The notes beneath the pieces are model-generated. The model was not told the DNA's origin. It ran no database searches and saw only the letters and a program-made list of their open reading frames with translations. The translations under genes and the position numbers were made by a program. A DNA stretch of 47,243 nucleotides from an uncultured bacterium (GTDB taxonomy: Bacteria > Bacillota > Clostridia > Oscillospirales > Oscillospiraceae): the NCBI GenBank assembly GCA_949840775.1, contig CATKXO010000021.1:1-47243 (forward strand), in the 5' to 3' direction. Positions 25,376 to 29,258 of this stretch are shown here, in pieces; position 1 is the first letter of the stretch, and the number at the start of each line of letters is the position of its first letter.

Positions 25376-26854
25376 TCACAGGATAATGCAGATCAGTCCA
25401 CCGGAGCCCTCGTTGATGATGCGCTGGAGGGTTTCCCGCAGTTTCGTGCGGGCGTCCTCGGGCATCCGGTTGATTTTGGAGTTCAGGTCCTCGTTCACCA
25501 GCTCGTGGAGGGATTTGCCGAAGATGTTGGCCTCCCAGATGCGGCTGGAGTCCCCCTCGTACTCCTGAAGCAGGTAGTGGATCATGTCCTCGCTCTGCTT
25601 CTCGCCCCCCACAATGGGAGAGACCTCCGTCTCGATGTCGGCGCGGATCATGTGGATGGAGGGGGCGCTGGCCTTCAGCCGGACGCCGTACCGCCCTCCC
25701 TGCTTCATGATCTCTGGCTCCTCCAGCACCAGAGAGTCGATGGGAGGCACCACAATACCGTAGCCCGTCTCCTCCACCTGCTGGAGGGCGTCGGCCACCT
25801 TGTCGTAGGCCTTTTTCACCCCGGCCAGCTGGGTCAGCAGGGCCATCAGGTCGCCGTCGTCGGCAATCTCAAAGCCCGACTGCTGAGACAGGGTATTGTA
25901 GAACAGTCCCCGGGGCAGCTCCAGGCAGGCGGCGGATACCCCGGTGCCCAGGTCGATGTTGGAGATGCGGGCGTCGCTGACCACCTCGCAGTCCCGGAAG
26001 GAGTTCACCGCACTGTCCACATCCCGCACCCGGCGGAGCTGGGCGGTCCCCTCCCGGATGGCCCCGTACAGCGCCGCCTTGATGGGGTGCTCCTGGGGCA
26101 GGGCGTCCACCCAGGGGGGAAGGAACAGGTCCAGCTCCTTCACCGGGAACTCGTAGAGGACGCTCTTTAAAATGGCGTTGATCTCCTCCTGGTCCAGCTC
26201 CAGGCAGTTGGCCGCCACGCAGGTCACGTCGTACCGCTGGGCGATATCCGACCGGATGGCCCTGGCCCGCTCCGAGGCGGGGTTGGCGGAGTTGAGCAGC
26301 ACCACAAAGGGCTTGCCCAGCTCCTTCAGCTCGGAGATGACCCGCTCCTCCGCCTCCAGGTAGTCCTCCCGGGGGATATCGGTGATGGTGCCGTCGGTGG
26401 TGACCACCACGCCGATGGTGGAGTGCTCGGAGATCACCTTCCGGGTGCCGATCTCCGCCGCCTCCGCCATGGGAATCTCGTGCTCAAACCAGGGGGTGGT
26501 CACCATCCGCTCGGTCTCCCCCTCCAGCTGGCCCACCGCGCCGGGCACCAGATAGCCCACGCAGTCGATCATCCGCATCTGGAAGGCGGCACCCCCGTCC
26601 ACCTGGACCGCCACCGCCTCCTCGGGGACAAACTTGGGCTCCGCCGTCATGATGGTCCGGCCCGAGCCGCTCTGGGGCAGCTCGTCCCGGGCCCGCTCCC
26701 GGCGGTAGACGTTTTCGATGTTGGGGATCACCAGCGTCTCCATAAACCGCTTGATAAAGGTGGATTTTCCTGTCCGGACCGGCCCTACCACGCCGATGTA
26801 GATATCGCCCTCGGTACGGAGCGCAATATCCTCGTAGATTTTGCGATCTTCCAC
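25376..26854 (-). CDS. spoIVA: Stage IV sporulation protein A, coat basement-layer ATPase
   Basis: Polymerises around the forespore, using ATP, to form the platform on which the spore coat is built. The 492-residue protein has Walker A GPVRTGKST with Lys at residue 30, the position known to be essential in Bacillus subtilis SpoIVA. MIDCVGYLVPGAVGQ fits the Walker B/switch region, and the protein ends in the conserved hydrophobic GGLICIIL. The start is GTG with AAGGAGGAATTGCA before it. A sigma-E-like promoter lies 45-72 bases upstream. SipL and SpoVM homologues lie just upstream, separated by an inserted nuclease gene. Confidence 0.98.
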   Translation of the reverse strand: MEDRKIYEDIALRTEGDIYIGVVGPVRTGKSTFIKRFMETLVIPNIENVYRRERARDELPQSGSGRTIMTAEPKFVPEEAVAVQVDGGAAFQMRMIDCVGYLVPGAVGQLEGETERMVTTPWFEHEIPMAEAAEIGTRKVISEHSTIGVVVTTDGTITDIPREDYLEAEERVISELKELGKPFVVLLNSANPASERARAIRSDIAQRYDVTCVAANCLELDQEEINAILKSVLYEFPVKELDLFLPPWVDALPQEHPIKAALYGAIREGTAQLRRVRDVDSAVNSFRDCEVVSDARISNIDLGTGVSAACLELPRGLFYNTLSQQSGFEIADDGDLMALLTQLAGVKKAYDKVADALQQVEETGYGIVVPPIDSLVLEEPEIMKQGGRYGVRLKASAPSIHMIRADIETEVSPIVGGEKQSEDMIHYLLQEYEGDSSRIWEANIFGKSLHELVNEDLNSKINRMPEDARTKLRETLQRIINEGSGGLICIIL

Positions 26855-26898
26855 TGCAATTCCTCCTTCGGCTGTGTGAGCCGGTATTTGTTCCTTAC

Positions 26899-26926
26899 AG
26901 TGTATGAGACAGGCTGGGGATTATGA
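26899..26926 (-). promoter_or_regulatory. Sigma-E-like promoter of spoIVA
   Basis: Minus strand: TCATAAT (26926-26920), 13 bases, CATACACT (26906-26899). The -10 is an exact match to the mother-cell sigma-E consensus CATACAMT and the -35 is close to KMATATT. The known sigma-E control of spoIVA in Bacillus fits. Confidence 0.7.
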
Positions 26927-26938
26927 CAGAAATACTGG

Positions 26939-26968
26939 AAGAGGCAGGCCTAAAGGGGTCTGCCTCTT
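26939..26968. repeat. Hairpin repeat, left copy flanking the nuclease gene
   Basis: A 30-base hairpin with stem AAGAGGCAG/CTGCCTCTT plus inner G-C pairs. It differs at only two positions from the hairpin at 27670-27699. On the minus strand the bases just before both copies read AGC-ACN-NGN-TAA. Confidence 0.75.
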
Positions 26969-26983
26969 CTGCTTACCTGGTGC

Positions 26984-27011
26984 TTGAAAAGCGGTCGAAC
27001 TATGGTATAAT
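26984..27011 (+). promoter_or_regulatory. Promoter of the orphan nuclease gene
   Basis: TTGAAA (26984-26989), 16-base spacer, perfect TATAAT (27006-27011), 31 bases before the ATG. This is a vegetative-type promoter, unlike those of the flanking spore genes. Confidence 0.75.
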
Positions 27012-27042
27012 GAGGTGAAACAGGCCAAAGGAGATACCGATC

Positions 27043-27552
27043 ATGAGTGCAACAGCTATTCCAACTTCATCAACTGAGCCGGCCTCCAAACGAAGAACGC
27101 TGCTGTCAGCGGATGTGACAGAAGAATACCTTCGCTCCGCCGCGCCGGGTCAGGGGAGCATTACGTTCGAGGATGGATACAAGGTCAAAGGTCATCAGGC
27201 AGAAATCAACATGGCCGATTGGTTGCACTGTGAGTTTGGCGGAGATATTATATTGCTGGTAGAATCGAAAACGCAGGGAGACCGGACGCCGGACTACCGC
27301 TGGAATGGGCGCAGCTGGGAACTGAAAGGGGTCACATCAAAAAATTCTGTTGACCGCGCCATCAGGGAGGCCGCAAAACAAATTCAGGATAATCCCGGTG
27401 GAATTATTTTGGATACCTCGGACAGTGCACTTTCCGATGAGGCAATAGAGAACACAATCTCCCAACGAATGAAAAGAGCCGCACTTGATCTGGTCGATAT
27501 TTTGATTGTCTCAGATAAAAAACTCAAAAAAATTTTGCGGTACAAAAGGTAA
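27043..27552 (+). CDS. Orphan CdiA-CT-like nuclease (tRNase fold) protein
   Basis: A 169-residue protein with AAAGGAG 9 bases before the ATG. Residues 40-169 resemble the CdiA C-terminal tRNA nuclease domain of contact-dependent inhibition toxins. The PD-(D/E)XK-like core would be Glu54, Asp84 (TPDYRWNG), Glu93 and Lys95 (WELKGV), followed by the helix RAIREAAKQIQDN and strand GIILDT. The usual large delivery protein is absent, there is no secretion signal, and no immunity gene is adjacent. Similar lone domains occur in mobile elements. It is the only plus-strand gene in the spoVM-sipL-spoIVA locus and is flanked by duplicate hairpins, so it was probably inserted. An unrelated housekeeping nuclease role is possible. 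Confidence 0.72.
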   Translation: MSATAIPTSSTEPASKRRTLLSADVTEEYLRSAAPGQGSITFEDGYKVKGHQAEINMADWLHCEFGGDIILLVESKTQGDRTPDYRWNGRSWELKGVTSKNSVDRAIREAAKQIQDNPGGIILDTSDSALSDEAIENTISQRMKRAALDLVDILIVSDKKLKKILRYKR

Positions 27553-27603
27553 AACCGGAAGTGCCGCCCCTGCCAATACGGGCAGAGGATCATCTTCCGG
27601 TTT
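27552..27603 (+). terminator. Double-hairpin terminator of the nuclease gene
   Basis: The outer stem AAACCGGAAG/CTTCCGGTTT encloses an inner stem CTGCC/GGCAG (27570-27585). It begins inside the stop codon of the nuclease gene. Confidence 0.6.
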
Positions 27604-27669
27604 GGGACACCAATTGTCCTACGCTTATTATACACGATAACCGGCGGTTTTGCAACAGAAAATTTTGTA

Positions 27670-27699
27670 AAGAGGCAGGCCCAAACGGGTCTGCCTCTT
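27670..27699 (-). terminator. Hairpin repeat, right copy; terminator of sipL
   Basis: A stem AAGAGGCAG/CTGCCTCTT with inner G-C pairs, followed on the minus strand by TTTACAAAATTTT, directly after the sipL stop. 28 of 30 positions match the copy at 26939-26968. Confidence 0.75.
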
Positions 27700-27703
27700 G
27701 GCT

Positions 27704-29221
27704 TTATCGTGTGCTGGGGATGAGGAGCATCCGCCCCACGGGCAGGGTCTCCTCCTCCAGCTCGTTGGCCTGGAGAATCTGCTCCATGGTGGTGCCGTGG
27801 GCCTTGGCGATGTCCCACAGCTCCTCGCCGGGGGACGGCATCCGCAGTACCACGGAGGGCCGCTGGCCCTCCCCCGCGCTCCGGGCCTCTCCCAACTGGG
27901 CGCTGGTCACCGCCGGGATAGCGGTCGTCTCGGTGGTCAGGCAGTGGAACTCCACCGTAAACCGCACCTCCACCCCGCCGGCGGCGGGGGCGGCGAAGAC
28001 CTCTCCGGGACAGGCGCAGAAGCAGGAGCATTTGGCCCCCTCGGGGCAATCCAGGCGGCAGGTCACAGGGATGGACCGGCGGATGCACTGGACCAGCTCG
28101 TTTTCGTCCAGATAGAGCACTGTGATGCACGCCTCCGCTGTAAGGACCAGCTCCTTCCCCTCCCGGCTCTGGCGCACCTGTCCCAGGGTCAGCCTGGCGT
28201 CCGCAACGGAGCGCACCATCTCCCCCGTCTCCAGCAGCTCCCGGACGGCCTGGGGCCGTACCGACTGCTCGTCAAGGCTGCAAAGCAGCTGGTTCTCCCG
28301 CTCCACCTCCATGAGGTTGCCGGTACTGTACAGGTCCTGGAGGATCGTCACCGGACGGCGGCAGTACACCTTGGCCTGGGCCAGCAGCTCCAAGGTAACG
28401 TTCAGCTCCCGACTGTCGTTGGGGAGCTGGTCGCACTGGATAGCGGCCACCTCAACCTCCACCTGGCAGTCTCCCTCCTCTCCGGCGTCCGCCACCTCGA
28501 TAATCTGAGAGAAGGGCAGGGACTCATGGCTGGCGGACAGCGTGCCCCCCGCCTCCTGGAGCAGTATGTAGAGCTCCACCATTCCCTTGAAAATGAGCTT
28601 GGAGCCGATGAGCTTGCTCTCGGTGCACTCCGGCTGGACCCTGAGGGATAACAACACAGGGGAGTCCCCGGCCCCCTGGAGCCGCACCTGGTCCGAAAAG
28701 GTGAAGGGCTTTTCCTGGACAGCGGACAGCTGGTAGTGCTCCCCCTGGAACTGGCGCTGGCACAGGCCCTCCTCCTCTGTGCCGGTGACGCCGCTGCAAA
28801 TGGGCCGCTCCACCGGCTGGCAGGCGGTGATGTCTACGGCCAAATCCACCCGCAGCAGCACCTTTCGGGGGTTGAGGGCCCGGGCCTCGGCGGAGCGCAG
28901 CCTGGGGCTGGCCAGCACCGTCCCCCGCTCGGTGAGGCCGGGGGCCTCCGCCTGACAGGTAAAGGGCAGCCCCACCTCCATCCGCCGCAGGCCGCCGCCC
29001 CCCTCTGGCTGGTACAGAATGGAGGCCCGCACCATTCCAGTCACCTGGGCCATCCCCTCCCGGGCCTGCTTGCCGCTGAGAATCGCCTGCCCGCAGACAT
29101 CCACAATTCGCAGAATATCCGGACAGGCGTCGGGGACGATGCTCTCCAGGGTCTCCTCCTGGCACAGAGTGACCTCCGCCACTGTGTCGTAATTGATAAT
29201 GGTATCACGTTCAAATTCCAT
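27704..29221 (-). CDS. sipL: SipL homologue: SPOCS (DUF3794) and LysM coat protein
   Basis: A 505-residue protein with repeated DUF3794/SPOCS-type regions (one ending near RVDLAVDITACQPVERP, the last around LVLTAEACITVLYLDENE) and a C-terminal LysM domain (about 460-505, GEELWDIAKAHGTTMEQIL). This is the layout of Clostridioides difficile SipL, whose LysM domain binds SpoIVA to anchor the coat. Location next to spoIVA and spoVM supports the same role. The ATG at 29221 follows GGGAGAGG; an in-frame start 8 codons upstream would cover this site. A sigma-E-like promoter and a hairpin leader lie upstream. Confidence 0.9.
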   Translation of the reverse strand: MEFERDTIINYDTVAEVTLCQEETLESIVPDACPDILRIVDVCGQAILSGKQAREGMAQVTGMVRASILYQPEGGGGLRRMEVGLPFTCQAEAPGLTERGTVLASPRLRSAEARALNPRKVLLRVDLAVDITACQPVERPICSGVTGTEEEGLCQRQFQGEHYQLSAVQEKPFTFSDQVRLQGAGDSPVLLSLRVQPECTESKLIGSKLIFKGMVELYILLQEAGGTLSASHESLPFSQIIEVADAGEEGDCQVEVEVAAIQCDQLPNDSRELNVTLELLAQAKVYCRRPVTILQDLYSTGNLMEVERENQLLCSLDEQSVRPQAVRELLETGEMVRSVADARLTLGQVRQSREGKELVLTAEACITVLYLDENELVQCIRRSIPVTCRLDCPEGAKCSCFCACPGEVFAAPAAGGVEVRFTVEFHCLTTETTAIPAVTSAQLGEARSAGEGQRPSVVLRMPSPGEELWDIAKAHGTTMEQILQANELEEETLPVGRMLLIPSTR

Positions 29222-29258
29222 GGTGTCCTCTCCCTTGTCATACATAGAGTATCAACCC

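Follow-up and report, generated by a model that had tools for sequence, protein, structure and literature searches.

The nuclease gene that lies between sipL and spoIVA in this DNA is faced at its 3′ end by a conserved structured RNA on the opposite strand. We judge it likely, on the evidence of the sequences, that the two form a mobile toxin–RNA cassette in which the RNA is the immunity factor, and which now persists behind sipL as an orphan toxin–immunity (addiction or defence) module. The window, by which we mean the whole 47,243-nucleotide stretch of DNA analysed here, had been given a preliminary description in which the nuclease was a lone gene with no immunity gene. That part of the description has to be given up: a structured RNA on the facing strand is present in 26 of 26 loci, and no immunity protein was seen.

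In the proposed mechanism, a CdiA_C-family RNase toxin of the PD-(D/E)XK type and a convergent hairpin-RNA gene at its 3′ end would make up a two-part mobile cassette, with the short hairpin RNA acting as the RNA antitoxin of the nuclease. The RNA would most likely neutralise the toxin protein by binding, the conserved inner helix being the candidate for recognition, while the variable outer stem would contribute stability or specificity. In the phage relatives, the same pair is joined to head proteins; delivery of the toxin would there be by the virion, and a lysogen would be shielded by the RNA that it makes. In the present chromosome, insertion would have placed the pair behind sipL and duplicated the end of that gene. 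The analysis shows the gene, its predicted fold, the structure and strand preference of the RNA, its linkage to the toxin, its conservation and its array; transcription, toxicity, neutralisation, binding and delivery we infer from sequence. The features of the window are the following.

25376–26854, minus strand: spoIVA, flanking host gene (TIGR02836 profile)
26939–26984, no strand: left copy of the duplicated sipL end and terminator hairpin (46-nt repeat, 80%)
26984–27011, plus strand: promoter-like site of the nuclease gene, TTGAAA-N16-TATAAT, sigma-70-like (sequence)
27043–27552, plus strand: nuclease toxin gene, 169 aa, predicted PD-(D/E)XK fold, CdiA_C family; ATG at 27043, stop at 27552 (profile and fold match)
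27544–27554, minus strand: U-rich 3′ end of the RNA, overlapping the nuclease stop codon (sequence)
27545–27620, minus strand: proposed immunity RNA, about 76 nt, its ends placed from the promoter and the U-run (fold, promoter, covariance model R1)
27555–27600, minus strand: main hairpin of the RNA, with outer stem CCGGAAG/CUUCCGG and conserved inner stem CCUCUGCC/GGCAGGGG containing a U·G pair (fold)
27605–27619, minus strand: 5′ hairpin of the RNA, GGAC...GUCC (fold)
27627–27655, minus strand: convergent promoter-like site TTGCAA-N17-TATAAT, −35 at 27655–27650 and −10 at 27632–27627 (sequence)
27670–27715, no strand: right copy, the true sipL end and terminator hairpin (46-nt repeat, 80%)
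27704–29245, minus strand: sipL, with SPOCS domains (PF12673) and LysM, flanking host gene (Pfam profile)

The arrangement is as first described, a plus-strand gene with its own sigma-70-like promoter set between minus-strand spore genes, which are recognised by their SipL and SpoIVA profiles (SipL has no match in NCBIfam); a ribosome-site motif, AAAGGAG, stands upstream of the ATG. The likeness of the domain to the tRNA nuclease toxins of contact-dependent inhibition (CDI) is borne out as well. The protein scores 32 bits against Pfam PF18451 (CdiA_C; curated cut-off 26.6), and the comparison of its predicted structure with CdiA-CT nucleases, which had been suggested as a check, gives a nuclease fold in agreement with a CdiA-CT tRNase. 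The best match among those listed is a PD-(D/E)XK CdiA-CT, the fold being like that of the solved CdiA-CT of Burkholderia pseudomallei 1026b (PDB 4g6v, PF18451). A ToxN-type chain was absent from the matches listed, which leaves a ToxN/AbiQ fold admissible. The putative catalytic residues are E54, D84 and E93-x-K95; an alignment of 14 sequences shows E54 and D84 to be invariant and K95 nearly so (R in L003). We predict a tRNase-type activity from the fold and assign no cleavage target.

The 1026b toxin is the end of a large CdiA, and its partner is the immunity protein CdiI, whereas the window nuclease is a lone gene paired with an RNA. In place of the large CdiA, CdiB and CdiI of a CDI system, there is a single gene of 169 codons between sipL and spoIVA. 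The Pfam scan finds CdiA_C alone in its product, with no N-terminal phage head domain. Neither PADLOC nor NCBIfam gave a match for the nuclease, and the search for plasmid homologues gave none. The one match of a single-sequence PDB search (E 0.45) was judged to be due to chance. A contig scan with the lone window protein as query gave no match.

We now consider the RNA itself. Its promoter-like site matches the consensus at 10 of 12 positions, and none of 200 shuffles contained an equally good one. The region 27555–27619 had been described as a double-hairpin terminator of the nuclease gene; the hairpins stand, while the element is more than a terminator: a convergent promoter precedes it, and its minus-strand transcript has the somewhat better fold. 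In the window the strand preference is small (−32.6 for the convergent strand against −29.5 for the gene strand). Across 26 distinct loci, namely the window and 25 others from protein searches, the 75 nt reading into the toxin end fold more stably on the convergent strand in every case, and the fold z is below −2 against shuffles in 25 of them, L013 being the exception. This set leaves out the loci that came from the Pfam model, as well as L008, L009, L035, L036, L037, L094 and L095, which are copies of loci in the set; the RNA was placed by its R1 match in L093 and by the end of the conserved domain in L097, and two of the toxins (L011, L015) contain an in-frame stop. The promoter-like site has p<0.05 in 15 of 21 units, p>0.05 in five and p 0.05 in one, and the best scores are 9–12 of 12 in all 21 units versus 6–10 on the other side.

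These data bear on one alternative, that the element is a mere bidirectional terminator between convergent genes and that its promoter is there by chance. Terminators typically look like this, with a hairpin and a U-run where a gene ends, and the weaker matches to the RNA model in the genus (27–34 bits) look like ordinary terminators or coding DNA. A terminator would not account, however, for the greater stability of the convergent strand in 26 of 26 loci, for the recurrence of the promoter-like site across units, for the conservation of sequence within the hairpin from phage to chromosome, or for array units 1 and 2 (see below), which have no U-run behind them. We regard this explanation as improbable.

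The covariance model R1 was built from 12 RNAs, all chosen beside toxins, and matches the window at 27549–27600 with 56.7 bits. It scores 41–61 bits at 16 sites and 23–48 bits at further sites, and its best control scores are 16.2 bits on the gene strand of the same loci and 16.5 bits in 400 kb of unrelated genus DNA. At E 0.05, there is no R1 match in L003, L006, L011, L012, L014 or L015, which carry RNAs of other classes. The RNA of L006 (1433–1504), for instance, looks different from the R1 class, being apparently a pair of hairpins that may form a pseudoknot; the L006 toxin is 44–45% identical to that of the window. Rfam 15 has no match at the RNA in L001–L003 (E up to 5) or in seven phage or prophage loci (E up to 1). 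Elsewhere in the phage loci, the GP20-b motif (RF03003) matches below its gathering score (L017 4521–4582, L007 2186–2241).

Over 24 distinct rows of the alignment, 92.8% of the cells are paired, a share that falls to 52–65% when the partners are slid. There are 30 two-sided changes, compared with 11.8 (sd 3.0) in shuffles, and nearly all of them are in the outer stem; the pairs showing such a change number seven, a count equalled in 100 of 500 shuffles. The covariation of the outer stem could reflect the upkeep of a terminator. The inner helix is 100% paired, with two-sided change at only one of its eight pairs, and it relies on G·U pairs that can form on the RNA strand alone, including a U·G at one position in 22 of 24 rows. 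Conservation of the element is also seen by direct comparison. The 51 nt after the window stop are identical to those of the phage relative L038 at 51 of 51 positions, the coding DNA at 314 of 450, and to those of L002 at 50 of 51, the coding DNA at 286 of 446.

A second alternative is that the RNA is a cis-antisense regulator of the type I kind, which, by pairing with the toxin mRNA at its 3′ end, reduces expression while the protein is left untouched. Complementarity in cis is perfect, since the convergent RNA overlaps the 3′ UTR and the stop codon of the toxin gene. Neither sequence nor structure need be conserved for antisense pairing; the hairpin, however, is identical at all 51 positions where the coding DNA is 70% identical, and the G·U pairs are maintained on the RNA strand. 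Furthermore, if the phage toxins arrive as protein, control of the mRNA would leave the recipient unprotected. The toxin-less array of three different units also speaks against it, and we consider the antisense explanation unlikely on the whole.

Returning to the RNA as an immunity factor, its linkage to the toxin could be followed across genomes, R1 scans having covered 361 genomes in total. In 297 genomes of one family, the protein profile matched five loci and R1 matched the same five; L093, L096 and L097 are among them, and none of these three contributed to R1. In the genus, R1 exceeds 50 bits at two loci only, both of its class, and the weaker matches (L087–L092) were set aside on viewing. 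We also picked 46 viral contigs by a DNA pattern derived from the RNA, of which 45 were searched with R1, the remaining one being already known. Six of the 45 gave at least 30 bits. Five of these matches (L044, L065, L054, L060 and L083, the first two near-identical) adjoin a nuclease gene that the protein scans had missed; in the sixth, L082, the sequence ends too near the RNA to show whether a nuclease is present. At lower scores, L057 (24 bits) has a nuclease gene, and L073, L062 and L051 (21–23 bits) have none in the sequence examined. No nuclease is found in L164 (47.6 bits), the sequence of which ends 201 nt after the RNA.

Over 22 loci, toxin identity and RNA identity are correlated (r 0.74, reached in none of 5000 permutations), as is expected of any linked DNA. 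In L017, a toxin with its RNA is followed by a remnant of a toxin tail with a second RNA. In L097, the toxin frame is truncated and the promoter and RNA are intact; the left side of this locus may be an assembly join.

Outside the loci found with the protein, the family scan gave a single R1 match, and this is a toxin-less array of three different units:

L167, 9712–9852, minus strand: toxin-less tandem array of three RNA units beside a tRNA-Val(gac) gene (R1 and sequence)

The array has one promoter and a single terminal U-run, with none behind units 1 and 2. Unit 1 is 92% identical to the RNA of toxin L034, unit 2 is 89% identical to that of L007, and unit 3 is nearest the L017/L033 class (78%). 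The genome with the array, G833, holds elsewhere a toxin with its RNA (L095). Neither antisense control nor plain termination explains a toxin-less array. In L082, an apparent unit of another class stands in tandem with the R1 unit, the first unit being at best 70% identical to that of L011, and L057 has an extra RNA unit ahead of its own. A separate pattern scan of viral contigs for further arrays gave six matches, in which R1 scores at most 12.3 bits; one toxin-less array was seen in all. By analogy, a distribution in which the RNA is linked to the toxin, displaced with remnants, or arrayed without a toxin corresponds to the behaviour of polymorphic-toxin immunity genes. If this is correct, a hairpin of some 50 nt would be a cheap element that can be stacked in arrays, providing heritable immunity against phage-head toxins.

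The RNA might, instead of inhibiting the nuclease, serve it as a cofactor that activates it or a guide that aims it, and co-occurrence and sequence conservation would suit any ribonucleoprotein. It is difficult, on the other hand, to see the use of an activator in a toxin-less array or beside a toxin remnant, and a review (PMC9086364), in its passages on the solved relatives, gives metals as the cofactors of these nucleases and mentions no RNA in that role. This explanation has, in our estimate, a low probability.

Polymorphic toxins (CDI, Rhs, MuF) are described as toxin–immunity pairs with a protein immunity factor, and we looked in nine loci for reading frames that have 40 codons or more and a ribosome-site-like motif and that start no more than 400 nt past the toxin stop. 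Small frames of 40–73 codons, candidate immunity ORFs, are present in L010, L017, L033 and L038. The first frame in L016 and L018 is a 471-codon terminase, and in L007 and L034 it is a scaffold-like frame of 172–176 codons (named by eye). L013 has no qualifying frame within 400 nt of the toxin stop, and the window has no plausible downstream immunity ORF before sipL. The literature searches, which did not reach preprints or most subscription journals, showed no polymorphic toxin described as having an RNA for its immunity factor. If the RNA is indeed the immunity factor, pipelines that seek a small ORF behind the toxin would overlook it, and some “orphan” toxins would not be orphans.

The profile searches place the nuclease domain at the end of longer proteins. 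Of the five longer relatives scanned, L010 and L016 have CdiA_C alone, and the other three have a phage head domain in Pfam: VG15 in L017, minor capsid protein 2 (Phage_min_cap2) in L038 and Phage_portal in L096. The last of these is as follows.

L096, 1501–3261, minus strand: portal protein with C-terminal nuclease (Pfam)

Among the relatives found, the minor-capsid fusion L038 is the nearest, with a nuclease domain 70% identical to that of the window. L016 is Faecalibacterium phage Aster, with the nuclease gene between the portal and terminase genes; as the terminase begins 103 nt past the toxin stop, no immunity ORF fits in the gap. The window nuclease appears to be a copy, now detached, of a toxin which phages incorporate in their head proteins.

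The MuF toxins of temperate phages (Jamet et al. 2017, PMC5576092) are head proteins with C-terminal toxin domains, those of the 1026b type (cd13442) included, and delivery with the virion was proposed for them. The same paper anticipates that immunity comes from a protein, and a small ORF was found there to follow 89.4% of the 191 MuF toxin genes. Like the MuF toxins, the present relatives have the nuclease attached to head proteins (VG15, minor capsid protein 2 and portal). They differ in having an RNA where MuF has the small ORF, and the window gene differs in having no head domain.

The pairing of an RNase toxin with an RNA partner is an idea shared with type III toxin–antitoxin systems (ToxIN, CptIN, TenpIN), RNA binding being predicted in the present case. 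The layout of these systems is one of tandem RNA repeats upstream of the toxin in the same operon, whereas the window RNA is a single convergent unit downstream with no match in Rfam, and the PD-(D/E)XK fold of the toxin is, as far as known, unrelated. In the account of type III systems in PMC12548467, the RNase toxin is sequestered by the RNA, and phage PhiTE evades with an acquired pseudo-antitoxin sequence. The present pair would tie the logic of these systems to phage-delivered toxins.

A bolder reading, which we put forward as doubtful, joins several steps: virion-borne toxins would be neutralised by the RNA, its helix would be a decoy of the acceptor stem of the tRNA that the toxin targets, toxin-less arrays gathered by hosts and prophages would confer immunity against several phages at once, and the pair would move on its own between chromosomal sites. 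The near-invariant U·G of the helix is as at position 3:70 of tRNA-Ala, and a decoy of the tRNA-Ala acceptor stem is a guess that fits this pair and the target given in reviewed passages for the solved relative. Four contiguous pairs matching 1:72 to 4:69 of the genus tRNA-Ala, with the U·G at 3:70, are present in 18 of 26 units, the window unit differing at 1:72. By plain count of four matching pairs, with 11 tRNAs compared, tRNA-Asp (25 of 26 units) and tRNA-Val(gac) (23) do at least as well as tRNA-Ala (21), and mimicry of tRNA-Ala is not favoured. We have lowered the probability of the joint reading on account of this count. Should the RNA act on the protein, a small RNA inhibitor of a tRNase-type fold would become available for structural study.

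It remains to describe the insertion site. The two hairpins that bracket the gene, 26939–26968 and 27670–27699, were correctly described as duplicates, being identical at 28 of 30 positions; the whole repeat extends over 46 nt at 80%. With up to three mismatches the hairpin occurs at these two places only in the 2.61-Mb genome, which disposes of the idea of a genome-wide repeat, and it has no match in shuffles of the window. On the minus strand, the sequence ahead of the left hairpin is AGC-ACC-AGG-TAA and that ahead of the right one AGC-ACA-CGA-TAA, both Ser-Thr-Arg-stop as previously reported.

An insertion that duplicated the end of sipL and its terminator had been proposed, with an empty site to be sought in related genomes, and the comparison agrees with it. 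The gene or a homologue is found in four of the 64 genus genomes, the window's own included, and 60 have no homologue. The four copies occupy four sites. Besides that of the window, L002 has its copy between lepA and a regulator-like gene, L006 behind typA and L003 behind a sirtuin-like gene; the neighbours of these three were named by eye. SpoIVA was matched in 56 of the 64 genomes, and 30 sipL–spoIVA loci were fetched (L098–L127). The spacer, measured from the sipL end to a codon near the spoIVA start, is at most 300 nt in ten of them and longer in six (window included); 13 have no recognised sipL tail, and one is at a contig end. Because so few genomes have the gene, all at different sites, and short spacers without it exist, we read the cassette as an insertion. 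Duplication of the neighbour's end is supported, as it recurs in L002, where a perfect repeat of 54/54 bp equal to the 3′ end of the regulator-like gene flanks the insert; it is absent at the two other homologues, L003 and L006 having no comparable flanking repeat. The 630 bp between the L002 repeats contain the RNA promoter, the RNA and the toxin gene, the start codon of which overlaps the repeat.

Restriction-modification genes can insert with long target duplication, and the cassette is like them in being a small toxin–antidote unit with tens of bp of duplicated target and no transposase. It differs in that it has no methyltransferase, and its repeats are of 46–54 bp.

The longer sipL–spoIVA spacers carry, in the stretch viewed, other sequence, such as a different reading frame in L098 and L105, and for this reason the spacer (26855–27703 in the window) resembles a cargo hotspot in the genus. 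The regulator–lepA spacer (L134–L163) also varies: it is readable in 16 of 30 loci, most of which have other DNA there, is 28 nt long in L137, and is at least 174 nt long in the other loci where lepA was found. The position of the cassette could suggest a domesticated sporulation factor, the nuclease being used in spore formation. With a sigma-70-like promoter, relatives that have lepA-, typA- and sirtuin-like genes for neighbours, no homologue in 60 of the 64 genus genomes, and other DNA in the same spacer elsewhere, this is very improbable. We found no evidence for a role in sporulation or for the housekeeping role mentioned in the preliminary description.

We finally searched 391 Clostridia genomes with PF18451, which gave 14 matches in 11 genomes (the window's own included), that of L029 being below the cut-off. 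In L019, L020, L025, L031 and L032, the nuclease lies within longer frames and is followed at once by a start codon and an open frame in the next 160 nt (judged by eye), as expected of protein immunity. Six loci of genus g220 (L021–L024, L026, L030) have short CdiA_C genes followed by a co-directional promoter-like site and a different hairpin RNA, which is on the other strand than in the window class and has no clear strand preference. Just behind this RNA in L021 and L022, a tRNA-like T-arm sequence can be seen by eye, where ARAGORN finds no tRNA. The CdiA_C family seems to use both protein and RNA immunity. L028 is an 82-aa CdiA_C frame with a convergent promoter-like site and a hairpin.
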